A program made the position numbers and the translations under genes. 42,873 bases of DNA from Flavobacteriaceae bacterium (GTDB taxonomy: Bacteria; Bacteroidota; Bacteroidia; Flavobacteriales; Flavobacteriaceae): the NCBI GenBank assembly GCA_016649745.1, contig JAENXD010000002.1, positions 1 to 42,873 of the forward strand. The letters run 5' to 3'. Shown piece by piece: positions 100 through 26,219 of this stretch (position 1 is its first letter; every line of letters starts with the position of its first letter). Below the pieces are notes generated by a model that saw only the letters and a list, made by a program, of their open reading frames with translations, did not search any database and was not told where the DNA came from.

Positions 100-1278
100 A
101 TGAAACAAACATGGCGTTGGTATGGGCCAAATGATCCCGTATCCTTATCAGATATCAAACAAGCAGGTGCAACAGGAGTTGTTACTGCATTACATCAGGT
201 GCCAAATGGAATGGTATGGTCATTAGATGAAATCAATAAAAGAAAATTGGTAATTGAAAATACTGGGCTTACCTGGAGCGTGGTGGAAAGTATTCCGGTA
301 CACGAAAACATAAAAACACGCTCAGGAAATTTCCAACAGTATATTGAGAATTATAAACAAAGCATTGAGAATTTAGCAAGTTGTGGTATTAACATTGTAT
401 GCTATAACTTTATGCCTGTATTAGACTGGACGCGAACAGATTTAGCATTTGAAGTTGAAGACGGATCAAAAGCCCTACGTTTTGATATGACCGCTTTTGC
501 GGCATTTGAATTATATTTATTGAAACGACCGGGAGCAGAAAATTCTTATTCAGATCAACAGAAATCGGAAGCAAAGGCATATATTGAAAAACTTTCAGAA
601 GAACAAAAACAAAAATTGATAAATAATATTATTGCCGGGTTACCGGGGGCAGAAGAAGGTTATACTTTAGAGCAGTTTCAGTCTATTTTAGATACCTATG
701 CCAATATTGACGCGAAAAAGTTAAGAGAAAACCTTGCGTCTTTTTTAAAGGAAATTATCCCTATAGCATCTCAAAATAATGTCTTGATGTGTATTCATCC
801 AGACGATCCTCCATATCCAATATTGGGATTACCAAGAGTTGTGAGTACCGAAGATGATTATGCATATTTGTTTTCTGAAGTGCCAGACAGAGCTAACGGA
901 ATTACCTTTTGCACGGGTTCCTTAGGGGTTAGAGAGGATAACAATTTGGTGCAAATTTTCAAACGCTTTGCAGATCGAGTTCACTTTTTACATTTAAGAA
1001 GTACACAACGTGATGAGAAAGGTAATTTCTTTGAAGCCAACCATTTGGAGGGCGATGTGGATATGTTTAGTGTGGTAAAGGAAGTGGTTATTGAAGAGCG
1101 CAGAAGAAAATCAAAAGGAATGAAGGATGCTTTGATTCCTGTACGTCCAGACCATGGCCATCAAATGTTAGATGATTTGCATAAAAAAACCAATCCCGGA
1201 TATTCAGGAATTGGACGTTTAAGAGGATTAGCAGAATTAAGAGGACTAGAGTTCGGAATTTCAAAAAGTTTGACATAA
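100..1278 (+). CDS. uxuA: mannonate dehydratase
   Basis: [40 protein letters not shown] start and full-length 392 aa match UxuA. Confidence 0.96.
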
Positions 1279-2687
1279 TGGCATTGATTAAATCAAAAAT
1301 CTTTATAACTGAAAATTTTTTACTACATTCTAAAGTAGCTGAAACACTTTATCATGAGTATGCCAAGGAAATGCCTATTATTGACTATCACAATCATTTA
1401 TCACCAAAGCTGATTGCCGAAAACCGGCCTATAATGAATATTACAGAAGCTTGGTTAAGTGGCGACCATTATAAATGGCGTGGTATGAGAGCTAATGGAA
1501 TTGAAGAGCACTTTATTACAGGTTCAGAGGCATCATTAGAAGAAAGATTTAATAAATGGGCTGAGACGGTTCCGTATACTTTGAGAAATCCTTTGTTTCA
1601 TTGGAATCAATTAGAATTAAAACGCTATTTTGATATTGATGATATTCTTCAGCCAAGTACAGCAAATGCCATTTATAAAAAAGCAAATACTGTTTTAGAA
1701 CACAAAACACCTGCGCAATTGCTCGAAGACATGAAGGTAGAAGTGGCTTGCACCACTGATGACCCTACCGATAATCTTCAATACCACCAACAGATTGCTA
1801 AAAGTAATTTTTACACCAAAGTATTACCCACATTTCGTTCAGATGAACTATTTTTTATTGGAGAAACTAAATTTTTAAAATATTTAGAAAAATTAAGTTG
1901 CGTTGTTGATTTCCCAATTAAGACGTTCTCAGACTTATTAAAAGCAATAGATTCAAGAATCAATTATTTTAATGAAAATGGGTGTAAGCTTTCCGATTTT
2001 GGTGTTGGTGGAGGCCATGTGATAGTTGATTTTACTTTTGATGAGGTTGAAGTCATATTTGCTAACTATTTAAATGGTAAATCCCTTTTACTTCAAGAAA
2101 AAAACATATACAAATCAGCGATATTTATTCACTTAGGTAAAAAATATCATGAGTACAAGTGGGTACAGCAGTTCCATTTAGGACCAATTAGAAATAATAA
2201 TTCAAGTTTGGTAGCGCAAGTTGGCCAAGATGCAGGATGTGACTCTATAGGTGATTATCCTATGGCTGATTTTATGTCTAATCTATTCAATACATTAAAT
2301 TCAACAAATCAATTAGCAAAAACCATTACTTATAATTTAAACCCATCACAAAATGAAGTGTTTGCAACCATGATGGGTAATTTCAATGCCGAGGTTCCGG
2401 GAAAAATGCAGTGGGGTTCTGGCTGGTGGTTTTTAGATCAGAAAGACGGAATGGAAAAACAGTTGAACACTTTATCGAATATGGCATTGTTAAGTCGTTT
2501 TGTGGGGATGTTAACCGATAGTCGTAGTTTTTTATCTTTTCCAAGACATGAATACTTCAGGAGAATTTTATGTGATTTGATAGCGGAAGATTTAAGAAAA
2601 GGATTGGTACCCAATGACATTGATTTTCTTGGAAAAATGATACAGGATATTTGCTACCACAATGCAAAAGAATATTTCAAATTTTAA
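1278..2687 (+). CDS. uxaC: glucuronate isomerase
   Basis: 469 aa with IDYHNHLSP..., [27 protein letters not shown]-like C-terminus; TAATG overlap with uxuA. Confidence 0.96.
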   Translation: [469 protein letters not shown]

Positions 2688-2712
2688 ATCAAACAAATTA
2701 TTTTATCATACA

Positions 2713-3753
2713 ATGAAAAAAGTAGTAACATTTGGAGAAATTATGTTAAGATTATCTCCTCAAGGATTTTTAAGATTTTCACAAGCCGACAATTTTGATG
2801 TAGTTTATGGAGGCGGGGAATCAAATGTAGCTGTATCTTTAGCGAATTATGGAATTCCGGTAGATTTTGTTACGCGTTTGCCTAAAAATGATATTGGTGA
2901 ATGTGCTATGATGGAAATGCGCAAAAGAGGAGTTGGAGTTGATAAAATTGTTTGGGGCGGCGACCGTTTAGGAATTTACTTTTTAGAAACAGGTGCTGTT
3001 AGCAGGGGAAGTAAAGTTGTTTATGACCGGGCAAATTCAGCCATTGCAGAAATTAAATCTGGAATGATTGACTGGTCAACAGTTCTTGAAGGTGTTGAGT
3101 GGTTTCACTGGACGGGTATTACACCTGCTATTTCTCAAGGTGCAGCTGATGTTTGTTTAGAAGCTGTAAAAGCAGCAAGCAACTTAGGAATTACCATTTC
3201 AACAGATTTAAACTACCGTGCTAAATTATGGCAATATGGGGGTGATAGAGAAGCAATTATGACCGAATTAACTTCCTATTGTGATGTTATTCTGGGAAAT
3301 GAAGAGGATGCTGAAAAGCACTTCAATATAAAGCCAGAAGGATTAGATATAACCACACAAGGTCACGATGTAAAAGCGGAAGCTTTCTTATCTGTTTGTA
3401 AACAAATGATGGAAAAATTTCCAAGAGCCAAAAAGGTAATTACTACTTTAAGAGGTTCTATTTCCGCTTCGCACAATACTTGGGCAGGTGTTTTATATGA
3501 CGGAAAAATCATGTTACAATCAACACAATACCAAATTACGGATATTGTTGACAGGGTTGGCGGTGGAGATTCCTTTATGGGAGGTTTAATCTACGGATTG
3601 TTAACATACCCTGAAGATGATCAAAACGCGTTGGATTTTGCCGTGGCAGCATCTTGTTTGAAGCACACCATTAAAGGTGATGCCAACTTGGTGACTGTTG
3701 ATGAAGTTCAAAAATTAATGGGAGGCGATGCCTCTGGAAGAGTAGCAAGATAA
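2713..3753 (+). CDS. kdgK: 2-keto-3-deoxygluconate kinase, PfkB family (start set at the internal ATG rather than the ORF start 2662)
   Basis: MKKVVTFGEIMLRLSPQG and C-terminal GGGDSFMGGLIYG PfkB signature; operon context. Confidence 0.92.
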   Translation: MKKVVTFGEIMLRLSPQGFLRFSQADNFDVVYGGGESNVAVSLANYGIPVDFVTRLPKNDIGECAMMEMRKRGVGVDKIVWGGDRLGIYFLETGAVSRGSKVVYDRANSAIAEIKSGMIDWSTVLEGVEWFHWTGITPAISQGAADVCLEAVKAASNLGITISTDLNYRAKLWQYGGDREAIMTELTSYCDVILGNEEDAEKHFNIKPEGLDITTQGHDVKAEAFLSVCKQMMEKFPRAKKVITTLRGSISASHNTWAGVLYDGKIMLQSTQYQITDIVDRVGGGDSFMGGLIYGLLTYPEDDQNALDFAVAASCLKHTIKGDANLVTVDEVQKLMGGDASGRVAR

Positions 3754-3782
3754 TGTTAGGTTAATTTTAAGTTTATATAACA

Positions 3783-3818
3783 TGTTGGGCCAATTATTTT
3801 TTGGCTCAACATTTATTT
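3783..3818 (+). terminator. Intrinsic terminator/attenuator-like hairpin between kdgK and the PFK gene
   Basis: TGTTGGGCCAA-TTATTTT-TTGGCTCAACA (11-bp stem, one G.T) followed by TTTATTT. Confidence 0.7.
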
Positions 3819-3845
3819 AAAAAATTAAAATTCTATAATAGAAAA

Positions 3846-5069
3846 ATGCCCGATAAAAAAACAATATTAATCATCTGTGGAGGAGGTCCAGCACCCGGAA
3901 TTAATTCAGTAATTAGTACGGTTGCCAAAGCTTTTTTAAAAGATGGCTATAAGGTTTTGGGTTTGCATGAAGGCTTTAAAGGGTTGTTTAGCGAACAGCC
4001 TAGAATAAAAGAGATCGATTTTGATCTTGCTGACACCATTTTTAGCAGAGGAGGTTCCACGCTCATTATGAGCAGGTTTAAACCTGACAATGAAAAACTA
4101 AATACGAAACTCTTTTTAGAAAATAATGTAAAATTACTTGTCAGCATAGGTGGAGATGACACAGCCTCAACGGCCAATAAGATCACGGCTTATTTAGAAA
4201 AAGAACAAATTTTCATTTCCAATATCCATGTTCCTAAAACCATAGACAATGACTTACCCTTACCTGACAGAAACCCAACTTTCGGATTTCATTCCGCCAA
4301 AGATGAAGGCGTACGTATAGGAAATACCGCTTATGAAGATGCCCGAACAAGCCAAAATTGGTTTGTAATGTCGGCCATGGGAAGGTCTGCAGGCCATTTG
4401 GCTTTTGGTATCGCAACAAGCTGTCATTTTCCAATGCTGGTTATTCCTGAAATGTTTGAGAATACCAATATCACCCTTGATAAGGTAGTCCGTTTGGTGA
4501 TATCATCTATTATTAAAAGAAAAGTAGAAAATATCCATTATGGTGTTGCCATGGTAAGTGAAGGCGTTTTTCATAATTTGCCAAAATCTGAATTGGATAA
4601 GATTGGCGTTAATTTCACTTACGATAACCACGGACATCCTGAATTGGGGAATGTGAGCAAATCTCATATTTTGAATATGCTTGTTCAAAATAAATTAAAA
4701 GAGCTGAAAATTGACATCAAAAGCAGGCCAATAGAATTAGGATATGAATTGCGTTGTTGCAGGCCCATAGGTTTTGATTTAACCTTATGCACACTTTTGG
4801 GAATTGGTGTTAAAAAATTATTTGATGAAGGTAAAAGCGGGTGCTTGGTTTCAGCAAATTCAAGAGGTGAAATCACGCCATTATATTTAGCCGATTTACA
4901 GGATGAAAATGGTAAGATACAGCCTCGTTTGGTAGATATCAATTCCGAATTTTCAAAGCTGTGTTTTCAAAATTTACATTATTTAGATGAAAATGATTAT
5001 GAAGCCGCAAAGCGCTATTTGAAAAATCCTGCGGAATATGATTTTAAAAAAATATTAATAGAAATATAG
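3846..5069 (+). CDS. 6-phosphofructokinase, PPi-dependent type by motif (start set at the internal ATG MPDKKTILIICGGG)
   Basis: PFKA-family GGGPAPGINSVI, SIGGDDTAS (GGDD) and PKTIDNDLP (Lys) motifs. Confidence 0.88.
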   Translation: MPDKKTILIICGGGPAPGINSVISTVAKAFLKDGYKVLGLHEGFKGLFSEQPRIKEIDFDLADTIFSRGGSTLIMSRFKPDNEKLNTKLFLENNVKLLVSIGGDDTASTANKITAYLEKEQIFISNIHVPKTIDNDLPLPDRNPTFGFHSAKDEGVRIGNTAYEDARTSQNWFVMSAMGRSAGHLAFGIATSCHFPMLVIPEMFENTNITLDKVVRLVISSIIKRKVENIHYGVAMVSEGVFHNLPKSELDKIGVNFTYDNHGHPELGNVSKSHILNMLVQNKLKELKIDIKSRPIELGYELRCCRPIGFDLTLCTLLGIGVKKLFDEGKSGCLVSANSRGEITPLYLADLQDENGKIQPRLVDINSEFSKLCFQNLHYLDENDYEAAKRYLKNPAEYDFKKILIEI

Positions 5070-5075
5070 AAAAAA

Positions 5076-5744
5076 ATGGCACAATATTCAAGAATTGAAG
5101 TAGCTACAGTTATGAAAGAAACAGGAATGATTCCTTTATTTTTTCATACAGATATTGAATTAAGTAAAAAAGTATTAAAAGCATGTTATGATGGTGGAGC
5201 ACGGTTAATGGAGTTTACGGCGCGCGGAGATTTTGCCCACGAAGTTTTTGGTGAATTAACAAAATACGCTATCAAAGAATTACCAGGAATGATTATGGGA
5301 GTAGGTTCTGTAACTGATGGTGCTGCAGCTTCATTATATATGACCTTAGGGGCAAATTTTATCGTAACGCCGGTTTTAAGAGAAGACATTGCTATTGTAT
5401 GTAACCGAAGAAAGGTATTATGGTCTCCAGGTTGTGGTACCCTAACTGAAATTGCACGTGCAGAAGAATTAGGCTGTGAAATAGTAAAATTATTCCCCGG
5501 GGATATCTACGGACCTCAATTTGTAAAAGGTATCAAAGGTCCTCAACCTTGGACTAGCATTATGCCAACCGGAGGCGTTTCTCCAACAAAAGAAAATTTA
5601 GAAGGTTGGTTTAAAGCAGGTGTAACTTGTGTTGGTATGGGCTCTCAATTAATCAGTAAAAATGACAATGGAACATTTGATTTGGTAAAAATTGAGAAGC
5701 TTGTAAAGGAATCTCTTGAAATAATTAAAAAATTAAGAAACTAA
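5076..5744 (+). CDS. eda: bifunctional 2-keto-3-deoxy-6-phosphogluconate / 4-hydroxy-2-oxoglutarate aldolase
   Basis: 222 aa; FTARG, VGSVTD, WSPGCGT, IVKLFPGD (Schiff-base Lys) and MPTGGV motifs. Confidence 0.93.
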   Translation: MAQYSRIEVATVMKETGMIPLFFHTDIELSKKVLKACYDGGARLMEFTARGDFAHEVFGELTKYAIKELPGMIMGVGSVTDGAAASLYMTLGANFIVTPVLREDIAIVCNRRKVLWSPGCGTLTEIARAEELGCEIVKLFPGDIYGPQFVKGIKGPQPWTSIMPTGGVSPTKENLEGWFKAGVTCVGMGSQLISKNDNGTFDLVKIEKLVKESLEIIKKLRN

Positions 5745-9766: not shown

Positions 9767-12700
9767 ATGAAATTTAGATTATTCACCAAAAAAGTCAGAT
9801 TACTATTCTCACTTTTTTTATTCTTGGGTATTTTTGTTGCTTCGGCACAAACCTTTGAGATTAACGGAACCGTTACTGACGTGAATGAATCTCCTTTACC
9901 TGGAGTTTCTATTGTTGTAAAAAACACAACTAAAGGAATAACAACAGATTTTGGAGGTAAATTTACACTGTCTAATATTCAAAATGGAGAAACGTTAGTT
10001 TTTTCTTATCTTGGATATGTAACAAATGAAATTGTAATTAGCAATTCAAATTATTTAAACATAATACTTAATGAAGACACGCAACGGTTGAATGAAGTTG
10101 TTGTTACAGCCTTGGGTATTAAACGTGAGGAAAAAGCGCTTGGTTATGCTGTTCAAAAAGTAGCAGGTGAGTCTCTCCAAACTGTAAGAGGTATAGATGT
10201 TGGAACTTCTCTTACGGGTAAAGTTTCGGGTTTAAAAGTACTTAATAGCACTGAATTTGGTGCTGCCCCAGACATTCAAATTCGTGGAGAAAACCCTCTG
10301 TTGGTTATTGATGGTGTTCCGTATCAAAACATGACCCTTAGAGATATCGCTGCAGATGATATTGAATCTATGAGTGTACTTAAGGGAGCAACTGCTTCTG
10401 CACTTTATGGATTTAGAGGGCAAGGTGGTGCAATTATGATTACTACTAAAAAAAGTGGTAATGGGGGTTTATCGGTTTCTATAAATAGCGGATCTATGTT
10501 TTCTGCGGGTTTTCTGGCCATTCCTGAATTACAATCTACATTTGGACGTACAGTAAGTATAGCTACTAATATTTATGATAGAGGGGCAAATGGTTCATGG
10601 GGAGTGCCTATGGACGGACGTGAAGTTATTCAATGGGATCCTATTTCAAAAACACTAGTACCTATGCCGTATTTACCAATAGGAAAAGATAATTTTAATA
10701 ATTTTCTTGAACAAGGTTATATTTTAAATAATAGCATCAGTATTTTACAACAAGGTGAAAAGGGAAGTTTCCGTGTTTCTGCTACAAAAGTGGACAATGT
10801 AGGTCAATATCCAAATTCTAAATTTAACAAATATACTTTTAGTTTAGGGGGTGAAATGAAGACAGACAAATTTAGTCTATCCTCTACCATGTCTTATAGT
10901 AAGCAAACTTCTCCAAATTTAGGATTTAATGGTTATAGAGCTTATGACCCTATGTACAGCATGCTTATTTGGGGAGCTGGAGATTGGGATGTTAGAGATT
11001 ATAAAGACTATTGGATAGTTAAAAATGAAATACAAAACAGTAGTTACACTGCTGGAGCTAATAATCCTTATTTTGATAGAAACGAAAGAACAAGAAGTGC
11101 AAATAAGGATATTCTAAATGGAATGCTTTCAGTTAATTACGATATTAATTCGTGGTTAAAAGTTACAAATCGTGTTGGGTTAGATACTTATAGTAATGTG
11201 CAGGAAGTAACTGTTTCAGTAGGTTCATTCCAAGGAGCAGGTACCGCCAAAGTTATTGATGGAGGTTCAGAAATTTGGGGGGAATCAAGAAAAGGTTCCT
11301 TTAACAAAGGAATTGCAAGAGGCTACAGTATAAATGAAGATTTAATATTTTTATTTAATAAAAAAATAAATGATTTTGTGGTAGATGGTCTTGTAGGTGG
11401 TTCCATTTCATACAATCAAGATGAAGGTATAGAGGCTTTAACTAAAGGAGGTCTTTCAATACCAGGTTTTTATTCACTTAAGGCATCCATACTTCCAGTT
11501 TCAGTAAATTCAAAAATATATAAAAGACAAGTAAATAGTTTATATGGTCGTATGGGAGTATCATATAAAGGAATTATTTTTGCAGAAACTACTTTGCGTA
11601 ATGACTGGACTTCAACACTTTCAAAAGATAATCGCTCCTACTTATATCCATCTTTTTCAGCAAGTTTTGTAGCTTCAGAACTATTACCTAAAACAGATTG
11701 GTTATCATTCTGGAAAATTCGTGCATCTCAAACAACTGCAAAAAAACCAGCTGACATCTATGATATTAACATGGCTTATACAATTACACCAAATGCTTGG
11801 GGTAATTTAACTTCAGCATCTTATCCTGGAACAATTCGTGGGACAGATCTTAATGCAGAATCTTCATCAACATTTGAGGTGGGAACGGCAATGAAGTTTT
11901 TCAATAAAAGGGCTTCCTTAGACGTATCCTATTACAACAAAAGAATGTATGATTTTTTAAAACCAAACACAATTAGTCAGGCATCTGGTTATGACAAAAA
12001 CTATATAAATATAGACGAAGAAATTACTAGAAAAGGAATTGAAATTTCTGCAGATGTAACACCATTTAAAACAGCAGATTGGCAATGGGATCTAAATTTA
12101 AACTGGTCTAAATATGCACGTTATTATACAAAATTAGATGATGATTTTTCTACTGACCAACCTTGGGTAAAAGTTGGAGAGAGAGTTGATTATTATATAA
12201 TTAATGACTATTTAAAAGATCCAAGTGGAAACATAATTCACAGTAACGGTTTGCCTGAATATTCAAAATTTGGTTCAAAATTTGGAAACTATGATCCAGA
12301 TTGGATTTGGGGGCTGAGTTCAAGTTTAAAATATAAAAATTGGGCGTTACAGGTCTCGTTTGATGGACGTGTAGGGGGATTAGCTCAAACAAGTACTGAA
12401 ATGTATATGTGGATTTCAGGTTCTCATCCAGATTCAGTTGTACCCGAAAGAATGCTAGACGCCACACTACCTGGTACGAGCAACTACACGGGTCAAGGTG
12501 TTAAAGTAGTTTCAGGAGATGTGAGTTTTGATACTTATGGTAATATAGTTACTGATACACGTATGTATGCACCAAATGATATCCCTGTAACTTATAAGAC
12601 TTACATTAGTAAATATCACAAAGGTACAGCATGGGGCGGATCTCCTTCTCCGGTAGATACTTACAGTACTACATTTTTTAAAATGAGAGAAATGTCAATT

Positions 12701-12886
12701 ACTTATATTGTATCTAAAGAGTTTTCAAATAAGTTAAATGCCAAAAATATTTCAGTTTCTGCAATAGGGCAAAACCTATTATTATGGACAAAAGATTTTA
12801 AATACTCTGATCCCGATGGTGGAAGTGATGACTTTAGTGATCCATCTCAAAGATATATAGGGTTTAATTTAAAACTCGATTTCTAA
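9767..12886 (+). CDS. susC: SusC-like TonB-dependent outer-membrane receptor
   Basis: 1039 aa; CarboxypepD_reg-like domain (GTVTDVNESPLPGVSIVVKNTTKG), plug (LNEVVVTALGIKREEKALGYAVQKV; IRGENPLLVIDGVP), beta-barrel C-terminus. Confidence 0.96.
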   Translation: MKFRLFTKKVRLLFSLFLFLGIFVASAQTFEINGTVTDVNESPLPGVSIVVKNTTKGITTDFGGKFTLSNIQNGETLVFSYLGYVTNEIVISNSNYLNIILNEDTQRLNEVVVTALGIKREEKALGYAVQKVAGESLQTVRGIDVGTSLTGKVSGLKVLNSTEFGAAPDIQIRGENPLLVIDGVPYQNMTLRDIAADDIESMSVLKGATASALYGFRGQGGAIMITTKKSGNGGLSVSINSGSMFSAGFLAIPELQSTFGRTVSIATNIYDRGANGSWGVPMDGREVIQWDPISKTLVPMPYLPIGKDNFNNFLEQGYILNNSISILQQGEKGSFRVSATKVDNVGQYPNSKFNKYTFSLGGEMKTDKFSLSSTMSYSKQTSPNLGFNGYRAYDPMYSMLIWGAGDWDVRDYKDYWIVKNEIQNSSYTAGANNPYFDRNERTRSANKDILNGMLSVNYDINSWLKVTNRVGLDTYSNVQEVTVSVGSFQGAGTAKVIDGGSEIWGESRKGSFNKGIARGYSINEDLIFLFNKKINDFVVDGLVGGSISYNQDEGIEALTKGGLSIPGFYSLKASILPVSVNSKIYKRQVNSLYGRMGVSYKGIIFAETTLRNDWTSTLSKDNRSYLYPSFSASFVASELLPKTDWLSFWKIRASQTTAKKPADIYDINMAYTITPNAWGNLTSASYPGTIRGTDLNAESSSTFEVGTAMKFFNKRASLDVSYYNKRMYDFLKPNTISQASGYDKNYINIDEEITRKGIEISADVTPFKTADWQWDLNLNWSKYARYYTKLDDDFSTDQPWVKVGERVDYYIINDYLKDPSGNIIHSNGLPEYSKFGSKFGNYDPDWIWGLSSSLKYKNWALQVSFDGRVGGLAQTSTEMYMWISGSHPDSVVPERMLDATLPGTSNYTGQGVKVVSGDVSFDTYGNIVTDTRMYAPNDIPVTYKTYISKYHKGTAWGGSPSPVDTYSTTFFKMREMSITYIVSKEFSNKLNAKNISVSAIGQNLLLWTKDFKYSDPDGGSDDFSDPSQRYIGFNLKLDF

Positions 12887-12912
12887 TTTATTAACTAAGA
12901 AATTTAAAAAAA

Positions 12913-14442
12913 ATGAAAACAATAAAAAAACTTGTAACAACAGGAACCATTCTAATCTTGTTATTGGTAGTTGGCAGTTGCAGCAACTTTGATGATTTGA
13001 ATGATAATCCGGATGCAACTACAGAAGGAAATGCAGCAATGCTATGTACTAATGTCGTATTACGAATTACAGAATTTGGAGGAAAAGATTCAAAAGCAAT
13101 GATTTCAGATAATGCCCTCCCTAAATACGTAGGTTATGCAAATGAAGGACAATTAGCTTCCCAATATAATTTAATAGGAGGCAGTAGTTTTGGTGCAATG
13201 ACAATACTTCCGAATATTGATAAAATGATTGAGTATGCAACAGGGAGCACTATGGAGAATTCCTATAGAGGAGTTGGAAAATTTGCAACAGCTTTGATGT
13301 TCTATAATCTTACGATGGAAATGGGAGATATTCCTTATTCTGAAGCTAACCTTGGTCAAAATGGTGTTTATAAGCCAAAATATGATTCTCAAGAAACTGT
13401 TTTGATTGGTGTATTAAATGATTTAGTTGAAGCTGATCAATTTTTTGCAACAGGAATAACATTTACAGGTGATCCAACGCCATATAATGGAAATCCTGAA
13501 AAATGGCGTAAAGCAACTAATGCATTGGCTTTGAAAGTATTAATGAGTTTAAGTAAAAAAGAAACAGTTGCTTCATTAGATGTAAAAAATCGATTTGCAA
13601 CGATTGTAGCTGCTGGTAATTTAATGGATGCGTCAACAGGTTTTTATGGGCTAAACTATTCAGCTACTAATAAGCATCCAATTTCTGGAACAAATGATTT
13701 GTTTACATCAAAAACTATTTTAAGTTCTTTACTTGTTGAAAATTTAAAATTACTAAATGACAATCGTTTGTTTTATTTTGGTGAACCAGCAGTAGCTGAA
13801 ATAACTGCAGGAAAATTAATGTCAGATCCTGCAGCCTATATAGGCGTTGATGTTGAAATGAACTATTCTCAAATGAATTTAAACCATAGTGCTGGTTTAT
13901 ACTCCTTACTCAATAAACGTTATTTATCTCAAGAAGCTACTGAGCCTTTGAGAAAAATTACTTATGCAGAACAAGAACTAATTCTTTCTGAAGCTGTAAT
14001 TCGTGGTTGGATTACAGGTTCAGCTCAAACACATTACGAAAACGGTGTTAAAGCTGCTTTGACTGATGTTATGGAAGTTACATCAAGTTTTGCACACGAG
14101 AAAGCGATTACTTCGACCTATATTAACACTTATTTTGTTGGAGAAGCTGCATTTAAAGCTACTACTAGTGACCAATTGAAGCAAATTTGGATGCAACGTT
14201 ATATTCTTAACTTTATGCAAGAAGCACAATCAAGCTTTTTTGAATACCGCAGAAATACGTATCCAATTTTTCCAATTAATGTCGCTACGAGTTTAAATAC
14301 TGAAAATTTATCAGGGATACCAATGCGTTGGACTTACCCTAGTTCTGAAAATTCGGTTAATCGAGAAAATTTAATAATCGCATTAGATCGTCAATATGAA
14401 GGTTATGATGAGATTAATAAAATAATGTGGGTGCTTAAATAA
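12913..14442 (+). CDS. susD: SusD/RagB-like glycan-binding lipoprotein (SusD-like_2 type)
   Basis: Lipobox LLVVGSC; FDDLNDNPDATTE; directly downstream of susC. Confidence 0.93.
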   Translation: MKTIKKLVTTGTILILLLVVGSCSNFDDLNDNPDATTEGNAAMLCTNVVLRITEFGGKDSKAMISDNALPKYVGYANEGQLASQYNLIGGSSFGAMTILPNIDKMIEYATGSTMENSYRGVGKFATALMFYNLTMEMGDIPYSEANLGQNGVYKPKYDSQETVLIGVLNDLVEADQFFATGITFTGDPTPYNGNPEKWRKATNALALKVLMSLSKKETVASLDVKNRFATIVAAGNLMDASTGFYGLNYSATNKHPISGTNDLFTSKTILSSLLVENLKLLNDNRLFYFGEPAVAEITAGKLMSDPAAYIGVDVEMNYSQMNLNHSAGLYSLLNKRYLSQEATEPLRKITYAEQELILSEAVIRGWITGSAQTHYENGVKAALTDVMEVTSSFAHEKAITSTYINTYFVGEAAFKATTSDQLKQIWMQRYILNFMQEAQSSFFEYRRNTYPIFPINVATSLNTENLSGIPMRWTYPSSENSVNRENLIIALDRQYEGYDEINKIMWVLK

Positions 14443-14717: not shown

Positions 14718-16292
14718 ATGAACAAATTTAAATTAACATACTTTTTCCTATTGATTACAGTTTTTACACTTTTTTCAGGATGTAATTCAAATAAATCAGT
14801 TACACAAAGTAAAATTGTATTTGCTGATAATAAAGTTATAGCTCACAGAGGTGCTTGGAAAAAACATAATCTTCCGCAAAACTCAATAGCATCCCTAAAA
14901 CAAGCTATTAAATTAAATTGTACAGGTTCTGAATTTGATGTTAGAATGACTTTAGATGGGATTCTAATTATTAATCATGACCCACGTTACAATAATTTAG
15001 AAATTGAAAAGACCAACTACTCAAAGTTAGTAGCTTTTAAATTATCCAATGGAGAAAAACTCCCTACTTTAAAAGAATATTTATTGGCAGGTATTGAAAA
15101 TAATACAGCTACTAGGTTAGTTTGTGAAATAAAACCTTCAAAAATAAGCAAAGAAAGAGGACAGTTAATTGCTGCTAAAGTGGTTCAACTAGTTGAAAAG
15201 CTAAAAGCAAAGGACCTGATTATATATGTAAGTTTTGATTATGAAATTTTAAAAAAAATTAGAAAAATAGACCCAACAGCTTCAACACAATATTTAGAAA
15301 GTGATAAATCTATAGTTCAATTAAAAGAAGATGGTATTAGCGGTGCAGATTACTATTATGCTGATTACAAAAACCATGTTGAATGGATTGAAAGCGCGAA
15401 AAAAAACAACATAACATTAAATGCTTGGACCGTAAATAAAGTTGCTGATATGGATTGGTTTTTAGCAAATAATTTTGATTTTATGACCACAGACGAACCA
15501 GAATTATTATTGGAAACAGCAAAAAAATGGTCTGCTATTTATAAAGATTATAATCTGGTTTGGTCCGACGAATTTGAATATTCAGGGTTGCCAGATGATA
15601 CAAAATGGAATTATGAAGTTGGTGGCAGTGGTTGGGGAAATAATGAAAAACAGTTTTATTTAGAAAAATCACTCGAAAATTCATTTGTAAAAGATGGCAA
15701 ACTTCATATTGTGGCTTTAAAAAAAGATTTTGAAAATAATAATTATACTTCTGCGCGACTAGCCACTTATAAGAAATTTTTATTACAATATGGTAAAGTT
15801 GAAGTGATGGCAAAATTGCCAGAAGGAAAAGGAACTTGGCCGGCAATATGGATGTTACCCGAAAGTCTTCGAGAGAAAAAAGAAGTTTGGCCACTTTGTG
15901 GAGAAATAGATATCTTGGAACATGTGGGTAAAGATCCAAATGTAGTGCACACATCGCTTCATACTGAATTGTACAATTTTTGGAAAAAAAATCAATATAC
16001 CCATTTTGAAAAATTACCTGATGTCTTTAATGACTTTCACTTATATGGAATTGAGTGGACACCAGAGAGCATTCAGTTTTTTATAGATAATAAGTTGTTT
16101 TATGAAGCTATAAAAGGGGAAAATGGAAAGGTAACTACCAACGAAGGATGGCCTTTTGATAAACCGTATTTTTTAATTTTAAATCTTGCCATTGGCGGAA
16201 ATTGGGGAGGCAACATAGATGATGCAATTTTTCCTTCCGAAATGTTAATAGATTATGTTAGAATATACCAGAAACCAATATCCAACAATTAG
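14718..16292 (+). CDS. Fusion lipoprotein: N-terminal glycerophosphodiester phosphodiesterase (GDPD) domain + C-terminal GH16 beta-glucanase
   Basis: Lipobox LFSGC; GDPD residues HRGAWKKHNLPQNS, EFDVRMTLDG, NHDP, CEIKP; GH16 WSDEFEY, GKGTWPAIWMLP, GEIDILEHVG, DYVRIYQ. Confidence 0.92.
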   Translation: MNKFKLTYFFLLITVFTLFSGCNSNKSVTQSKIVFADNKVIAHRGAWKKHNLPQNSIASLKQAIKLNCTGSEFDVRMTLDGILIINHDPRYNNLEIEKTNYSKLVAFKLSNGEKLPTLKEYLLAGIENNTATRLVCEIKPSKISKERGQLIAAKVVQLVEKLKAKDLIIYVSFDYEILKKIRKIDPTASTQYLESDKSIVQLKEDGISGADYYYADYKNHVEWIESAKKNNITLNAWTVNKVADMDWFLANNFDFMTTDEPELLLETAKKWSAIYKDYNLVWSDEFEYSGLPDDTKWNYEVGGSGWGNNEKQFYLEKSLENSFVKDGKLHIVALKKDFENNNYTSARLATYKKFLLQYGKVEVMAKLPEGKGTWPAIWMLPESLREKKEVWPLCGEIDILEHVGKDPNVVHTSLHTELYNFWKKNQYTHFEKLPDVFNDFHLYGIEWTPESIQFFIDNKLFYEAIKGENGKVTTNEGWPFDKPYFLILNLAIGGNWGGNIDDAIFPSEMLIDYVRIYQKPISNN

Positions 16293-16293
16293 T

Positions 16294-17130
16294 ATGAAAA
16301 AATTAGTTATTTTATTAATATTTATTGGATTGAGTTCAAACTCATATACCCAAACTTTTACTGCAATGACTTACAACATTCGTTTGGATGTTGCTGTTGA
16401 TGGAGAAAATGCTTGGCCTCTTCGTAAGGAATATTTGACTTCTCAAATACGATTTTACGAACCAGATATTTTTGGAGTTCAAGAAGCAACTCCTAATCAG
16501 GTTGTTGAAATGTCAGCATTACTTCCTCAATACAATCAGGTTGGCGTTGGAAGAGATGGCGAAGGTAAAGGTGAATCTTCAAATATTTATTATAAAAAAG
16601 ACCGATTTATTGTAAAAGAAACAAATACTTTTTGGCTTTCGGAAACACCGAATGAAATTTCAAAGGGTTGGGATGCAGCCTTTAATAGAGTTTGTACTTA
16701 TGCTTTGTTGAAAGACAAAAAAACAAAAAATAAAATTTGGGTTTTTAATACCCATTTAGACCATATAGGAGAAGAAGCTCGAACAAATGGAATTCAATTA
16801 ATTCTTTCTAAAATAGCAACTCTAAACACTAAAAATTGTCCGGTGGTATTCATGGGTGATTTCAATTCTGAACCATCTACTGAAAGAATTATAAATCTAA
16901 AAAAAGAAATGAATGATTGCAGGGATGTATCCAAAGAAAAACCTTTCGGTCCTATTGGAACATTCAATGGATTTCAGCATAATGAGCCTGTAACTCTTTT
17001 AATTGACTATATTTTTGTGTCTAAAAACAACAAATTAAAAGTCAAAAAATATGCTATTTTAAGTGATTCAAAAGATTTAAAATATCCATCAGATCATTTA
17101 CCTGTTTATGTAAAATTGAGTTATAAATAA
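16294..17130 (+). CDS. Endonuclease/exonuclease/phosphatase (EEP) superfamily secreted phosphodiesterase
   Basis: MTYNIRLD, FGVQEA, NTHLDHIG, VFMGDFNSEP, DYIFVS, SDHLPVYV motifs; N-terminal signal peptide from the internal ATG. Confidence 0.9.
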   Translation: MKKLVILLIFIGLSSNSYTQTFTAMTYNIRLDVAVDGENAWPLRKEYLTSQIRFYEPDIFGVQEATPNQVVEMSALLPQYNQVGVGRDGEGKGESSNIYYKKDRFIVKETNTFWLSETPNEISKGWDAAFNRVCTYALLKDKKTKNKIWVFNTHLDHIGEEARTNGIQLILSKIATLNTKNCPVVFMGDFNSEPSTERIINLKKEMNDCRDVSKEKPFGPIGTFNGFQHNEPVTLLIDYIFVSKNNKLKVKKYAILSDSKDLKYPSDHLPVYVKLSYK

Positions 17131-17275: not shown

Positions 17276-18814
17276 ATGTCAAAAAAAGTAGTATTTATAG
17301 CATTTGTAGTCTCTTTAGGTGGATTTTTATTTGGTTTTGATGCCGGAATTATTTCAGGAGTCATGTCTTATGCAGGACCAGAATTTAATTTAAACGATGC
17401 CCAGACAGGATGGGTTGTAAGCTCACCATCTTTCTCAGCCATGATAGCAATGCTAGTTGCGGGCAGATTGAGTGATGTTATTGGGCGAAAAAAAATATTG
17501 ATTGTAGTGGCATTTTTATATGCAGTTTCAGCCTTGGCTTCAGCCTATGCAACTACCTATGAAATGTTGTACATAGCAAGAATGATTGGAGGATTGGCTT
17601 TTGGAGCTGCTTTAATTTTAGCACCAACTTATATTGCTGAAATATCTTCCGCAGAAAACAGAGGAAAATTAGTTTCCATTCAACAATTGAATATCGTACT
17701 TGGTTTTTTTGCTGCTTTTTTAAGCAATTATTATTTTAATAGATTAAACTCTTCAGGAAATTCATTTTTAACCGATGAAAATGTTTGGAGATGGATGTTA
17801 GGAGTTGAATTTATCCCAGCCGTTTTGTACTTTATTTTTATGTTTTTTGTTCCAAGAAGTCCACGTTGGCTATATACCAAAGGTAAAGTTGATGAAGCAC
17901 AAATGGTTTTGCATAGTCTGCACGATGAACAAACAGCAAAAATTGAAATTGAATCTATTGAAAAGAATATTGGCGAACACAAAAAAGATGAGAAAGTTTC
18001 AATGGTGGAACTTTTAAAACCATCATTACGTTTTATATTAATTGTTGGTCTGGTATTGGGTGTACTTCAACAAATTACAGGTATAAATGCAGTTTATTTT
18101 TATGCAACCTCCATTTTTAAACAAACAGGTATTGGAACAGATGCTTCTTTTGCATCTGGAATATTATTGAGTTTAACAACGGTATTTTTTACAATAATCG
18201 CAATATTCTTGATTGATAAAATGGGAAGAAGACCTTTATTATTAGTTGGAATTGCTGGAATAGCGATCAGTTTATTAGTATGTGCTTACGGATTCAATCA
18301 GGCTACATATGAACTTACTTCAGAAGAAATTGCACAGTTTGAAGATATTGATAACAGTAAATTAAAAGTTTTCGTCAATAAGCAATACGACAATGATATC
18401 GATTTTAAAAACGATATGAAATTGGCTTTAGGCAACCAAGTATATGCAAAAAATGAAGGGACTATTTTAGAAGCGGCAACAAACATTAATGCCACCTTAG
18501 TGCTAATTGGTATTTTAGGCTTTATAGCTTGTTTTGCTTTTTCATTAGGACCAGTAATGTGGGTAATGTTATCAGAATTATTTCCAAATAAATATAGAGG
18601 ATTGGCCATTGGTGTTATTGGTTTTGTGAATTCATTTATTAGCTGGGTAGTTCAACAGGTATTTCCTTGGGAATTATCAAACTTTGGAAATGCAATGAGT
18701 TTCTTAATATTTGGAGTCATAGCCTTATTCGGCTTCTTTATTTTACTAAAAATATTACCGGAAACCAAAGGAAAATCATTAGAACAAATTGAATTCGATT
18801 TAGTAAAAGATTAA
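17276..18814 (+). CDS. MFS sugar-porter family transporter
   Basis: GGFLFGFDAGIISGV, GRLSDVIGRKKILI, QQITGINAVYFYA, DKMGRRPLLLVG, PETKGKSLEQIE signatures. Confidence 0.93.
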   Translation: MSKKVVFIAFVVSLGGFLFGFDAGIISGVMSYAGPEFNLNDAQTGWVVSSPSFSAMIAMLVAGRLSDVIGRKKILIVVAFLYAVSALASAYATTYEMLYIARMIGGLAFGAALILAPTYIAEISSAENRGKLVSIQQLNIVLGFFAAFLSNYYFNRLNSSGNSFLTDENVWRWMLGVEFIPAVLYFIFMFFVPRSPRWLYTKGKVDEAQMVLHSLHDEQTAKIEIESIEKNIGEHKKDEKVSMVELLKPSLRFILIVGLVLGVLQQITGINAVYFYATSIFKQTGIGTDASFASGILLSLTTVFFTIIAIFLIDKMGRRPLLLVGIAGIAISLLVCAYGFNQATYELTSEEIAQFEDIDNSKLKVFVNKQYDNDIDFKNDMKLALGNQVYAKNEGTILEAATNINATLVLIGILGFIACFAFSLGPVMWVMLSELFPNKYRGLAIGVIGFVNSFISWVVQQVFPWELSNFGNAMSFLIFGVIALFGFFILLKILPETKGKSLEQIEFDLVKD

Positions 18815-20273: not shown

Positions 20274-22571
20274 ATGAAAAAAGTTTTACAAATAGTTTTT
20301 TTGATTGTAATTGTTTTGAGTTGTTCAACAATGGAGCAACCCAGAAACAATTCTCAAAAAATTAGCAGTTTAAAAACGAATGAAACCGAGCAAAAAATTT
20401 CAGCCCTTTTAGCCCAAATGACACTTAAAGAAAAAGCTGGGCAAATGTTAAATATTGGTTTGCCAGCTATTTTAGAAGGAGGATATTGGGATGCAAAAGA
20501 GCGTGCTGTTTTTAGTCAGGAAAAATTTAAAAAGCTACTTATTGATTATGCTGTTGGTTCAATTCATAATACACCTGGTTATCCTGCAGAAAGGGAAGAT
20601 TGGTATCAAATAGTTAAAAAAATTCAGGATTCAGCAATGCAAAAAACACGTTTGGGAATTCCTGTTTTATATGGAATTGATAATATTCACGGTGCTAATT
20701 ATGTAAATGGCTCTGTGATGTTTCCACATCAAATTGGGATTGCAGCAACTTGGAATACCGAACTTTCAAAAAAAAATGCCGAAATTACTTCATATGAATC
20801 AAGAGCTGCATCACTTCCTTGGAATTTCAACCCAAATGCCGATGTTGCAATGAGTCCGCTTTGGGGGCGAATTGGTGAAAGTTTTGGAGAAGATCCATAT
20901 TTAGTTTCAGAAATGACAGCTGCTTATATTCAGGGTTCGCAACAAAAAGGATTGCAAGATTCAACGAGTACAGCTGTTTGTATAAAGCATTACATTGGTT
21001 ATGGCGCTGGAAGAAATGGAAAAGACAGAGCCAATGCTCTAATACCCGAAAACAGCTTACGCCAGTATTTTTTACCTCCATTTGAAAAAGCTATTAAAAA
21101 TGGAGCTATGGGTGTAATGATTAGCTCAAATGCTGTTAATGGAATACCTTGTCATATCAACAAATATTACATAACTGATATTTTAAAAGGTGAATTAGGT
21201 TTTAAAGGTGTAGTAATTTCAGATTTTAGCGATATTGATTATTTAATAAGTGCACATCAATCCGCAAAAAATAAGCGAGAAGCTACAAAAATGGCTGTGA
21301 ATGCAGGATTGGATTTATTGATGAATCCTTTTGATGCTGATGTGGTGGATTACATTGTTGATTTGGTTGAAAAAGGAGAAATTTCAATAGCAAGAATTGA
21401 CGATGCCGTTACCAGAGTGCTGCGACTCAAATTTTACTTGAATCTTTTTGAAGTCCCTTATAACAATCCGAAAGATTACCCTGATTTTGCAAGTGAAGCA
21501 CATACTGAAGCAAATTACCAAACTGCAAGTGAAGCAATAACGTTATTAAAAAATAATGAAAATATGTTGCCTCTTGCTAAAAACAAAAAAGTATTGGTTA
21601 CAGGTTATACAGCTAATTCAATAAATATATTAAACGGTGCTTGGTCAAGGTCTTTTTTAGGCAGAGAAACAAAATTTAACGACCCTAGTAAATTAACAAT
21701 TCTAGATGCCATAAAAAAGCAAGTTGGTTCGACAAATGTTGAATTTGTGGAAGGTACCGATTATTTGGATGACATTAATTCAGAAGAAGCAGTTTCAAAA
21801 GCTAAAAATGCAGATTATATAATTGTTTGTGTTGGTGAAATTCCTGCAAGTGAAAAACCTTCGGATATTAATGAGTTGGAATTGCCAAAAGTTCAACAAG
21901 AATTAGTTAATAAACTATCTAAATCGGGTAAGCCAATTATTTTAGTAATGGTTCAAGGGCGACCAAGAATAATAAGAGAAATAGAGCCTTTGGTTGATGC
22001 AATTGTAATGGCTTACTTACCAGGTGATGAAGGCGGACGTGCAATTTCAGATGTTTTGTATGGCAACACAAACCCAAGCGGAAAACTGCCATACACGTAC
22101 CCAAAATATTCCGGAAATCACTTGACGTATTATCATAAAAAAACGGACATTAGAGATGCAGATTGGGGTTATAATGGCTTTTATCCTCAATTTGAATTTG
22201 GTTTCGGACTGTCTTACACAACTTTTGAGTATTCGAATTTAACAATTAGTACTGATACTTTAGTAGGTTCAGAAGAACTTAAAATTGCTGTTGATGTTAA
22301 AAATACAGGTACTCATGAAGGAAAAGAAGTGGCACAAGTTTATTTAAAAGATTTAGTGGCTACAGTTTCTCCAGATTCAAAAAAATTAGTGAGGTTTTCT
22401 AAAATCAATTTAAAAGTAGGAGAACAAAAAACAATTTATTTTAGCTTAACTTCAGAAGACTTAAAATCTATTGGATTGGATAATAGATGGATAATTGAAG
22501 AAGGAGAATTTGAAGTTCAAGTTGGAGGAAGCCCGAAAGAGTTACTTAAAAAAATATTTTATTACAAATAA
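20274..22571 (+). CDS. GH3 beta-glucosidase lipoprotein
   Basis: Lipobox VLSC; MTLKEKAGQM, GIPVLYGIDNIHG, KGVVISDFSDIDYL, LPYTYPKYSGN, C-terminal FnIII-like domain. Confidence 0.93.
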   Translation: MKKVLQIVFLIVIVLSCSTMEQPRNNSQKISSLKTNETEQKISALLAQMTLKEKAGQMLNIGLPAILEGGYWDAKERAVFSQEKFKKLLIDYAVGSIHNTPGYPAEREDWYQIVKKIQDSAMQKTRLGIPVLYGIDNIHGANYVNGSVMFPHQIGIAATWNTELSKKNAEITSYESRAASLPWNFNPNADVAMSPLWGRIGESFGEDPYLVSEMTAAYIQGSQQKGLQDSTSTAVCIKHYIGYGAGRNGKDRANALIPENSLRQYFLPPFEKAIKNGAMGVMISSNAVNGIPCHINKYYITDILKGELGFKGVVISDFSDIDYLISAHQSAKNKREATKMAVNAGLDLLMNPFDADVVDYIVDLVEKGEISIARIDDAVTRVLRLKFYLNLFEVPYNNPKDYPDFASEAHTEANYQTASEAITLLKNNENMLPLAKNKKVLVTGYTANSINILNGAWSRSFLGRETKFNDPSKLTILDAIKKQVGSTNVEFVEGTDYLDDINSEEAVSKAKNADYIIVCVGEIPASEKPSDINELELPKVQQELVNKLSKSGKPIILVMVQGRPRIIREIEPLVDAIVMAYLPGDEGGRAISDVLYGNTNPSGKLPYTYPKYSGNHLTYYHKKTDIRDADWGYNGFYPQFEFGFGLSYTTFEYSNLTISTDTLVGSEELKIAVDVKNTGTHEGKEVAQVYLKDLVATVSPDSKKLVRFSKINLKVGEQKTIYFSLTSEDLKSIGLDNRWIIEEGEFEVQVGGSPKELLKKIFYYK

Positions 22572-22773: not shown

Positions 22774-24591
22774 ATGATGAGGCATTTAATCATAAAAATT
22801 TTACTTTTTATTCCGTTTATTGCAATTTCACAAGAGTTGTTAATCAACACTTCAAACAGAAACACAACTTCGTTAAACGGAACGTGGAATTATATTGTAG
22901 ATCCTTACGAAACAGGATATTATAATTACAGGTATGAACCTTACGATCAATTACCTGAAAAAAATAATTCCGCATTTTATAATAATTATCACGCCTCTAA
23001 TAAATTAGAATTGGTAGAATATGATTTTGATAAATCACCCACATTAACAGTGCCTGGCGATTGGAATTCTCAATACGAAAAACTGTTTTACTATGAAGGA
23101 ACTATTTGGTATAAACGCTCTTTTGATTATTCATTTTTAAATGAAAATAATAGATTGTTTGTATATTTTGGAGCCATAAATTACAAAGCTGAAGTTTATT
23201 TAAATGGGAAAAAATTAGGCATACATGAAGGTGGATTTACACCTTTTAATTTTGAAGTAACAGATATTGTAAAACCAAAAGGCAATTATTTAGTCGTTAA
23301 AGTTGATAATAAACGTTTTAAAGAAGCAATCCCAACAATAAATACTGATTGGTGGAATTATGGCGGAATTACCAGAGATGTTAAACTAATTGAAGAGCCA
23401 AAAACATTTATTCATGATTATAAAGTCCAACTTAAAAAAGGAAATGCAAATATAGTAAGTGGTTATGTTAAATTAAACAATAGTTTAGGCAATGAAGCAG
23501 TTACTATTTCTATTCCAGAATTAAAAATCAACAAAACTTATACTGCAAAAAATGGAGCTATTGAATTTGAAATAAACACAAAAAAGATAAGTTACTGGTC
23601 GCCAGAATCACCTAAGCTATATGATGTTTTCATAAAAACAGCTCAGCAATCCTTAAAAGATGAAATAGGTTTTAGAACTATTGAAACAGTTGGTCCAGAT
23701 ATTTTATTAAACGGAAAATCTATTTTTTTAAGAGGAATTTGTATTCACGAAGAAAATGCGATGCGTGGGGCAAGAGCCTATAATAATGCTGATGCATTGG
23801 TAGCACTTAATTGGGCAAAAGAATTGGGTTGTAATTATGTAAGGTTAGCGCATTACCCACATAATGAATATATTGTAAAATTAGCAGACAAAATGGGAAT
23901 GATGGTTTGGGAGGAAATTCCGGTATATTGGACAGTAGATTTCACCAATAAAAAAACATTGAATATTGCTAAAAACCAACTAACTGAAGCCATTACTAGA
24001 GATAAAAACCGTGCTGCAATTATCATTTGGTCAATGGCAAATGAAACTCCACCTTCTGAGGCCAGAAATACATTTTTGAAAAATCTTATCAATCATTCCA
24101 AATCGTTGGATGATACCAGATTGGTAAGTGCAGCTCTTGAAAAACATTATAAAGATGGATTTAATGTTGTTGATGATGAAATTGGAAACTATTTAGACAT
24201 TGTTGCTTTTAATCAATATACAGGATGGTATGGTGGCTCATTGGAAGACGCCCCAAATGCAAAATGGAATATTAAATTTAACAAACCAGTTGTAATTTCA
24301 GAATTTGGTGGTGGTGCATTACAAGGTTTTCACGGAACAATACAAGAACGTTGGACAGAAGAATATCAAGAATATTTGTATGAACAAAACCTGAAAATGA
24401 TTGAAAAAATTCCAAACATTAGAGGTACAAGCCCTTGGATTTTAAATGATTTTAGATCACCTAAAAGAGTACTTCCAGACATTCAAGATGGCTGGAATAG
24501 AAAAGGCTTAATATCAAACCACGGTATAAAAAAGAAAGCCTTTTTTACAATGCAAAACTTCTATAAAAAAATGAAACTTCAATATCAATAA
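22774..24591 (+). CDS. GH2-family glycoside hydrolase (beta-glucuronidase/beta-galactosidase-like)
   Basis: SLNGTWNYIVDPYETGYY, YEGTIWYKRSF, WWNYGGITRDV, RGICIHEENAMRGARAYN, IIIWSMANETPP, VVISEFGGGA. Confidence 0.9.
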   Translation: MMRHLIIKILLFIPFIAISQELLINTSNRNTTSLNGTWNYIVDPYETGYYNYRYEPYDQLPEKNNSAFYNNYHASNKLELVEYDFDKSPTLTVPGDWNSQYEKLFYYEGTIWYKRSFDYSFLNENNRLFVYFGAINYKAEVYLNGKKLGIHEGGFTPFNFEVTDIVKPKGNYLVVKVDNKRFKEAIPTINTDWWNYGGITRDVKLIEEPKTFIHDYKVQLKKGNANIVSGYVKLNNSLGNEAVTISIPELKINKTYTAKNGAIEFEINTKKISYWSPESPKLYDVFIKTAQQSLKDEIGFRTIETVGPDILLNGKSIFLRGICIHEENAMRGARAYNNADALVALNWAKELGCNYVRLAHYPHNEYIVKLADKMGMMVWEEIPVYWTVDFTNKKTLNIAKNQLTEAITRDKNRAAIIIWSMANETPPSEARNTFLKNLINHSKSLDDTRLVSAALEKHYKDGFNVVDDEIGNYLDIVAFNQYTGWYGGSLEDAPNAKWNIKFNKPVVISEFGGGALQGFHGTIQERWTEEYQEYLYEQNLKMIEKIPNIRGTSPWILNDFRSPKRVLPDIQDGWNRKGLISNHGIKKKAFFTMQNFYKKMKLQYQ

Positions 24592-24593: not shown

Positions 24594-25409
24594 ATGTCAA
24601 AAAAAATAATTTTACTCGCAAGTGTAATAGGCTTAATAGCATTTGAATCTTGTTCAAATAAGAAGAAAATAGTAGAAATTTCCTCACCAAAATATGAGTT
24701 GGTTTGGGCTGATGAGTTTGAAGGTAATAATGTCAATTTAGATAACTGGACTTTCGAAATATGGGATGCAGGAAAAGTAAATAACGAATGGCAAAAATAT
24801 GTTGAGGACACAGATAATTATAAGGTACAAAATGGGATACTAGCTATTACTGCAACCAAAACAGGCGAAAATAAAAAAGGAGGCTATACATCTACCCGTT
24901 TATCAAGTCTAAATAAAAAAGAATTTAAATATGGTCGCATTGAATTTAGAGCAAAAATGCCAAATGGAAAAGGGACTTGGCCTGCTTTATGGATGTTAGG
25001 TTCGAATCGTAAAGAAGTTGGCTGGCCAAAGTGTGGAGAAATTGACATTATGGAATATGTTGGCTACCAACCCAATACAATACATACAAATATTCATACC
25101 CAAAATGATTATGGCGTTACAAATAATAAAGTAGCCATAAACACAAAAACTGCTGAAGAGGAGTTCCATATTTATGGTATTATTTGGACAGCCGAAGCAA
25201 TTAGTTTTTATATAGATTCACCACACAATATAAAAAATACCTATGCTCCAATAGAAAAAAATGCTGATAACTGGGCGTATAGCCAACCATTTTATTTGAT
25301 TATGAATTTTGCTGTTGGCGGGGCTTGGGGAGGAGTACAAGGTGTAGACGAAACAATATGGCCACAAACTATGGAAGTGGATTATGTTAGAGTTTATCAA
25401 TTAAAATAA
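24594..25409 (+). CDS. GH16 beta-glucanase (laminarinase-type) lipoprotein
   Basis: Lipobox FESC; WADEFEG, GKGTWPALWMLGSN, GEIDIMEYVGYQP, DYVRVYQLK. Confidence 0.93.
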   Translation: MSKKIILLASVIGLIAFESCSNKKKIVEISSPKYELVWADEFEGNNVNLDNWTFEIWDAGKVNNEWQKYVEDTDNYKVQNGILAITATKTGENKKGGYTSTRLSSLNKKEFKYGRIEFRAKMPNGKGTWPALWMLGSNRKEVGWPKCGEIDIMEYVGYQPNTIHTNIHTQNDYGVTNNKVAINTKTAEEEFHIYGIIWTAEAISFYIDSPHNIKNTYAPIEKNADNWAYSQPFYLIMNFAVGGAWGGVQGVDETIWPQTMEVDYVRVYQLK

Positions 25410-25602: not shown

Positions 25603-26219
25603 AATGAATAAAGATCAAAACGGTATTTTTTAACCAAATCAATACACTTTTAGATTGGGAAAAAATAAGTCGTATTATAGACAAGCACTACACAAAAGGA
25701 AAAAGCGCCACAGGAACCCCAAGTTACGATGGCCTACTTTTATTCAAAATGTGTTTATTGCAAACTTGGTATGGATTAAGCGATTATGAAGTGGAAGACA
25801 GAGTTAATGACAGCATATCTTTTGGGTATTTCTGCGGATTGACAATCGACCAAATAGCACCTGACCACAGTACCGTAAGCCGGTTTAGAACAGCAATGAC
25901 CCAAGCGGGTGCCTATGAAAAATTATTCAAGGAAATAAACAGCCAACTGGAACAAGGTAAAATCATTGTAAAAACGGGGGCTATTGTAGATGCCAGCGTG
26001 ATTGACACTCCATTAAAACCTAAAGGAAAAACGACGCATAAAGTGACCCAAGACAGAGAAGATGAGCAAGAAGTAGAAGTAACCAAAGAATATGCAGAAA
26101 GTGTGGACACAGATGCCAGTTGGTTAAAGAAGGGCGGGAAATATTATTTTGGCTACAAAAAACACCACGTTACTGATAATGAAGGTTTAAAATTTACAAG
26201 TAAATTTTCAAATTTCTGA
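25603..26219 (+). pseudogene. IS5-like transposase, frameshifted at the start and truncated at the C-terminus
   Basis: FFNQINTLLDWEKISRIIDKHYTKGKSATGTPSYDGLLLFKMCLLQTWYGLSDYEVEDRVNDSISFGYFCGL...DHSTVSRFR...IVDASVIDTP...KKGGKYYFGYKKHHVTDNEGL then out-of-family tail; the ATG 25603 frame stops at 25630-25632. Confidence 0.85.

Follow-up and report, generated by a model that had tools for sequence, protein, structure and literature searches.

The window, by which we mean the whole stretch of 42,873 nucleotides from the Flavobacteriaceae contig, contains a set of co-oriented genes in the order regulator, SusC, SusD-like_2, GDPD-GH16 fusion, EEP-fold protein, MFS transporter, GH2-like protein, GH3, GH2, and GH16 (Table 1). 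Judged from the open reading frame list and Pfam, they constitute a PUL, with a SusC/SusD pair, a regulator, and co-oriented glycoside hydrolases. No NCBIfam model matched the 925-aa regulator-type protein; its homologues (44 to 60%) are the first gene in most related PULs. A fragment of an IS5-family transposase lies directly after the last PUL gene, and a glucuronate catabolism cluster lies directly upstream of the PUL. The GH2 enzyme resembles β-glucuronidases, with a score below the cut-off. The glucuronate genes (uxuA-uxaC-kdgK-like-kdgA) were rejected as part of the system because the fusion is present and UxuA is absent in three relatives (G047, G182, and UBA6231); uxuA is found near the G133 locus, and in G323 UxuA is encoded on a different contig. 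The genome of the window also has a second β-glucan PUL (L150, contig C41), which consists of a regulator, SusC, SusD, GH16, and GH30. Because this GH16 and GH30 PUL is separate, the fusion PUL may serve a different glucan.

Table 1. Features of the GDPD-GH16 locus and its flanks (positions in the window)
Feature	Positions	Strand	Evidence
Glucuronate catabolism cluster (UxuA, glucuronate isomerase, KdgK-like kinase, PFK-like protein, KDPG aldolase)	100..5744	+	Mannonate dehydratase UxuA 607 bits (cut-off 200); glucuronate isomerase 556 (387); KDPG aldolase 378 (275)
Y_Y_Y regulator-type protein, 925 aa	6695..9472	+	Y_Y_Y E 2.8e-7; LuxR-like C-terminus by eye
SusC-type TonB-dependent receptor	9767..12886	+	Plug, CarbopepD_reg_2
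SusD-like lipoprotein, SusD-like_2 (PF12771) type	12913..14442	+	E 7e-57
GDPD-GH16 fusion lipoprotein, 524 aa	14718..16292	+	Pfam; full-length match to 7WW4/7WWC
Lipobox cysteine C22 of fusion	14781..14783	+	Sequence; invariant in 14 fusions
GDPD domain, residues 43-262	14844..15503	+	Pfam; H43, R44, E72, D74, H87, E137, K139
GH16 domain, residues 279-519	15552..16274	+	Pfam and structure match; GEIDILEH at 395-402
Secreted EEP-fold (Exo_endo_phos) protein, 278 aa	16294..17130	+	Pfam; probable phosphomonoesterase
Sugar porter MFS transporter	17276..18814	+	TIGR00879 334 bits, cut-off 238
GH2-C-like lipoprotein, 436 aa	18877..20187	+	E 1.8e-6; 65% homologue in G182 locus
GH3 β-glucosidase-type lipoprotein	20274..22571	+	BglX 473 bits, below 666 cut-off
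GH2 enzyme	22774..24591	+	71-81% homologues in other GDPD loci
Second GH16 lipoprotein	24594..25409	+	GH16 lineage differs from that of the fused domain
IS5-family transposase fragment	25749..26219	+	127 bits, cut-off 140

The fusion gene is a single open frame without internal stops, and Pfam and alignment confirm in its product all of the motifs that an earlier note had read from the DNA: HRG (H43, R44), ExD (E72, D74), NHD (H87), and EIK (E137, K139) in an intact-looking GDPD domain, followed by GEIDILEH in the GH16 domain. The Pfam GDPD profile is matched over positions 1 to 243 of 244 (E 1e-22, 81.8 bits against a cut-off of 23.6), and Pfam GH16 is matched at residues 312 to 499 (E 3e-23, 82.6 bits against a cut-off of 22). 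The GDPD motifs line up with their counterparts in the GDPD structure 2PZ0 and contain the catalytic His pair (H43 and H87) and the metal ligands (E72, D74, and E137) of the family. All seven motif residues, which we take from the GDPD family to have catalytic or metal-binding roles, are identical in 31 of 31 homologues, fused and free. Thus, a degenerate GDPD site, against which the earlier note had guarded, is ruled out. The PENT motif reads PQNS in the window protein, and PEN, PQN, and PKN occur among its relatives. E396, D398, and E401 of the GH16 motif are invariant in all 14 fusions, as is C22, the last residue of the N-terminal lipobox (LFSGC). An assembly artefact, another concern of that note, is excluded as well, since homologues at 82% (G047, same genus), 73% (UBA6231), and 71% (G182) carry the same pair of fusion and EEP genes.

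A sequence search of solved structures returned full-length matches (residues 36 to 519, E 7e-158) with 7WW4 and 7WWC, both named “beta-1,3(4)-glucanase”; 7WWC was solved with laminaritriose. An AlphaFold model (mean pLDDT, 81.8), built on the alignment of the fusions, matches 7WW4 in both domains, with a TM-score of 0.87 by query length and 51% identity. Together with laminarinase homologues, these structures suggest that the GH16 domain has β-1,3(4)-glucanase activity, and the conserved motifs predict that the GDPD half is active, too. The title of 7WW4 is only “multidomain beta-1,3(4)-glucanase,” and one might regard the enzyme as an ordinary laminarinase in which the GDPD barrel serves for binding or as a spacer and not for catalysis; however, with every canonical catalytic and metal position invariant in fused and free proteins alike, this is extremely unlikely.

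A single base separates the stop codon of the fusion (TAG, 16290 to 16292) from the start codon of the EEP gene (ATG, 16294), in agreement with the earlier reading. The EEP protein matches Pfam Exo_endo_phos (E 1.5e-15), and its residues E64, D189, N191, D267, and H268 are invariant in 18 homologues. Among solved structures, it is related to 3MPR (unassigned) and 4C1R (“mannosyl-6-phosphatase”). Thus, of the secreted EEP-fold phosphodiesterase that had been proposed, the secretion and the fold stand, whereas nothing in the sequence marks the protein as a phosphodiesterase, and its named relative is a sugar phosphatase. The EEP fold by itself does not separate phosphomonoesterases from phosphodiesterases or nucleases; the relatives point to a probable sugar- or glycerol-phosphate monoesterase. 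The EEP gene directly follows the fusion in 14 of 14 Flavobacteriaceae fusion loci, which is more than chance would give, and also in a locus of another family (L220). The window-type GH16 and the EEP gene are retained, without any GDPD of the fusion's family, in two loci, one in genome G376 (76% complete) and one in a Chitinophagaceae MAG (L070). This retention suggests that the EEP protein may serve the glucan and might act on phosphate remaining on the sugar instead of on glycerol-3-phosphate.

The same retention of EEP with GH16, the match with 4C1R, and the exolytic degradation of glycerolphosphate wall teichoic acid by GlpQ (PMC7086022) would also agree with glycerol-phosphate or sugar-phosphate in the backbone of the polymer, that is, with a teichoic-acid-like glycan containing β-glucosyl parts, on which GDPD and GH16 would both be depolymerases while the EEP protein clears sugar phosphate. 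We consider this unlikely, because the GH3, GH16, and GH30 companions (the last as two enzymes in G182) fit a β-1,3/1,6-glucan and because we saw in the window none of the enzymes that typify teichoic acids with amino sugars.

The earlier note had found no gene for glycerol-3-phosphate nearby. This is true of the window, which has no glp genes (the glpDKF genes of the same genome are on contig C45), but relatives carry glpK-glpF beside the locus, which answers the objection. In 7 of the 14 fusion loci (G125, G070, G210, G134, G245, G119, and G315), glpK-glpF are found no more than about 9 kb from the fusion, with GlpD beside them where read; in Gelidibacter (L068), GlpK-GlpF are at the border of the region that was read. 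The linked GlpK scores 757 bits with TIGR01311 (equivalog cut-off, 590), and GlpF is an MIP protein. There are at least three layouts: in G125, G134, G210, G245, and G119 the glp genes are upstream of the regulator, in G070 they lie downstream of GH3, and in G315 they immediately precede SusC. Three loci with an unfused GDPD also have glpK-glpF: G133 (downstream of GH31), G226 (GlpK-GlpF-GDPD-GH16), and G158 (GlpD-GlpK-GlpF-regulator-SusC-SusD-GDPD-EEP, with no GH16 nearby). A sulfatase with a CSPSR motif is part of several of these loci. Two loci from one genus, L045 (G119) and L046 (G315), share the fusion, EEP, and glp genes and differ in SusC/SusD (PF12771-like and PF07980-like, respectively), so that the transporter module has been swapped.

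Among the nine fusion genomes with a placeable GlpK, seven are glp-linked, against about 0.8% each at random; this comparison is uncorrected for shared ancestry and is to be read beside the differing layouts and the two unrelated SusC/SusD types of the linked loci. Twenty control loci from other genomes, all of which have this type of GlpK, lacked the fusion-type GDPD, the GH16 fusion, and EEP. Likewise, this GlpK type is commoner in genomes with the GDPD clade (11/25 versus 43/374; Fisher P = 1e-4, uncorrected for ancestry). No GlpK was found at E ≤ 1e-120 in the fusion genomes G182, G174, and G154 (99% complete); glycerol use is therefore not obligatory, and in these organisms the benefit may be phosphate, or only access to the glucan.

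Two other arrangements of glp genes were encountered. A recurrent Flavobacteriaceae housekeeping layout (L195, L197, L199, L202, L203, and L204) has glpK-glpF beside a distant GDPD (25 to 26%), together with genes that by eye are of the mevalonate-pathway and sugar-phosphorylase types. A different SusC/SusD locus in G374 (L063/L178) and G337 (L179) has a more distant GDPD (44 to 46%) beside glpDKF and is perhaps another glycerophosphodiester uptake system.

The fusion was found in 14 of 399 sampled Flavobacteriaceae genomes, belonging to 10 genera in the grouping of the genome-search tool, and more fusions were found in three other families among 395 genomes across the class. Carriers include Tamlana sedimentorum, Gelidibacter salicanalis, Niabella aurantiaca, Runella, and a UBA6231 MAG. 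Runella and three genomes of one other genus have the fusion alone, without EEP or glp genes and outside such a PUL. Separate GDPD and GH16 genes adjoin or neighbor each other in G144, G226, G133, G323, G001, and Larkinella, and free GDPDs of the fusion's clade also exist outside PULs. In a Lake Pavin MAG (L069, positions 10777 to 13499), the GH16 part of a GDPD-GH16 gene is broken up over several frames, so that the gene is a pseudogene or was misassembled, and this fusion was set aside as a lineage.

In the GDPD phylogeny, fused and free domains are intermingled within a single narrow family, whose well-supported branches need at least four changes of state. The fused GH16 domains, on the other hand, fall in at least three separated lineages: (i) the window type (the window, G047, UBA6231, and G182), (ii) the main flavobacterial type together with Runella, and (iii) the type of 7WW4 together with Niabella. 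The AU test rejects placing all fused GH16 domains in one clade (P = 1.95e-5) and also joining the window and main types alone (P = 3.2e-4). Thus, a single origin of the fusion is ruled out on the GH16 side, with GH16 exchange inside an existing fusion as the alternative to refusion. The trees point to several independent fusions or to swapped GH16 halves and, either way, to selection for the GDPD-GH16 pairing.

Fusion might merely combine two surface activities. GH16 would then act on an ordinary laminarin-like glucan and GDPD on unrelated soluble glycerophosphodiesters, such as head groups from lysed phytoplankton, with EEP and glp recovering phosphate and glycerol. The GDPD family does act on small glycerophosphodiesters (PMC7086022), the fusion and free GDPDs of its clade occur outside PULs as well, and GlpKF stand beside the distant GDPD in some control loci, too. 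However, the pairing recurs specifically with GH16, and in PULs the GDPD gene comes right behind SusC-SusD, with EEP next. Both suggest a shared polymer, and we therefore regard independent scavenging as possible but rather unlikely.

We put at about an even chance the proposal that the PUL targets a β-1,3-type glucan bearing phosphodiester-linked glycerol, with a bifunctional fusion and a phosphomonoesterase EEP protein. The GH16 half would cleave the β-1,3(4) backbone, while the GDPD half would hydrolyze the glycerophosphodiester and open the glucan to the exo-enzymes GH3 and GH2; a GlpQ-type reaction yields glycerol-3-phosphate (PMC7086022). The secreted EEP protein would convert glycerol-3-phosphate to glycerol or remove leftover phosphate from the sugar. 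Since GlpF conducts glycerol and not glycerol phosphate, the pathway requires a phosphatase that acts outside the inner membrane, and the secreted EEP protein, with its sugar-phosphatase relative, is the natural candidate. Glycerol could then enter via GlpF and be used by GlpK and GlpD, which are encoded beside the PUL in many relatives and elsewhere in the present genome.

The core idea of the earlier note, that in the fusion stripping of the substituent and cutting of the backbone may be coupled, is strengthened by the conserved GDPD site, the recurrent pairing with GH16, and the glp linkage. The same results favor glycerophosphate as the substituent of the suspected phospho-substituted β-glucan, whereas no gene supporting phosphocholine, its other candidate, was seen. 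The osmoregulated periplasmic or cyclic β-glucans of Proteobacteria, which that note had in mind, do carry phosphoglycerol (PMC3818809) but would be a poor substrate in both linkage and stereochemistry: the Escherichia coli backbone is β-1,2 with β-1,6 branches, and phosphatidylglycerol is the source of its phosphoglycerol (PMC3818809), which is hence sn-1, the opposite of the sn-3 form that alone is accepted by the tested GlpQ enzymes (PMC7086022). Furthermore, the locus proteins scanned with Pfam and NCBIfam gave no match suggestive of a β-1,2-glucanase, and these glucans are a very unlikely target. Bis(p-nitrophenyl)phosphate, suggested as a test substrate, is not cleaved by GlpQ (PMC7086022), so that a negative result would refute nothing.

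The glpK-glpF linkage in relatives suggests that some natural β-glucans bear glycerol-phosphate that is stripped off and eaten. Our tentative wider proposal is that an undescribed natural β-1,3-glucan carries sn-glycero-3-phosphate (perhaps with sulfate in some loci) and is so common that Flavobacteriaceae maintain a dedicated PUL for it, with a fusion that evolved repeatedly, a phosphatase, and a glycerol operon. In the literature searched, no natural glycerophosphate-substituted β-1,3-glucan was found. If the proposal is true, the PUL links the turnover of glucan, glycerol, and phosphorus, and a phosphodiester-substituted β-glucan is a source of carbon and phosphorus untracked by glycan surveys, with GDPD-GH16 genes as its marker.

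The GDPD-GH16 architecture itself is already known and solved. The multidomain β-1,3(4)-glucanase 7WW4/7WWC (released 2023-02-15) has the same two domains with conserved GDPD residues, but the GH16 domain of 7WW4 and that of the window fusion come from different lineages. We found no open-access paper on the GDPD domain or locus of 7WW4, which its own publication may cover, nor one joining GDPD, GH16, and PULs, in a search that left subscription journals mostly outside. Within this literature, the PUL context, the repeated fusion, and the glp linkage appear to be new, and a testable function is offered for the extra domain of a PDB enzyme named only as a glucanase. The GlpQ/UgpQ-type phosphodiesterases (PF03009; 3NO3 and 2PZ0) have the fold and catalytic positions in common with the fusion GDPD, which, unlike them, is joined to GH16 in a lipoprotein within a PUL and scores 49 bits with the NCBIfam equivalog PRK09454, far under the cut-off of 264. 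The EEP protein matches the fold of 4C1R over residues 23 to 259 (E 6e-44); in contrast to 4C1R, its gene adjoins GDPD and GH16. Finally, flavobacterial laminarin-type PULs (GH16, GH30, and GH3) share with the present locus SusC/SusD, the regulator, GH16, and GH3 (as well as GH30 in G182), whereas GDPD and EEP are added here, and a sulfatase and glpDKF are added in relatives.
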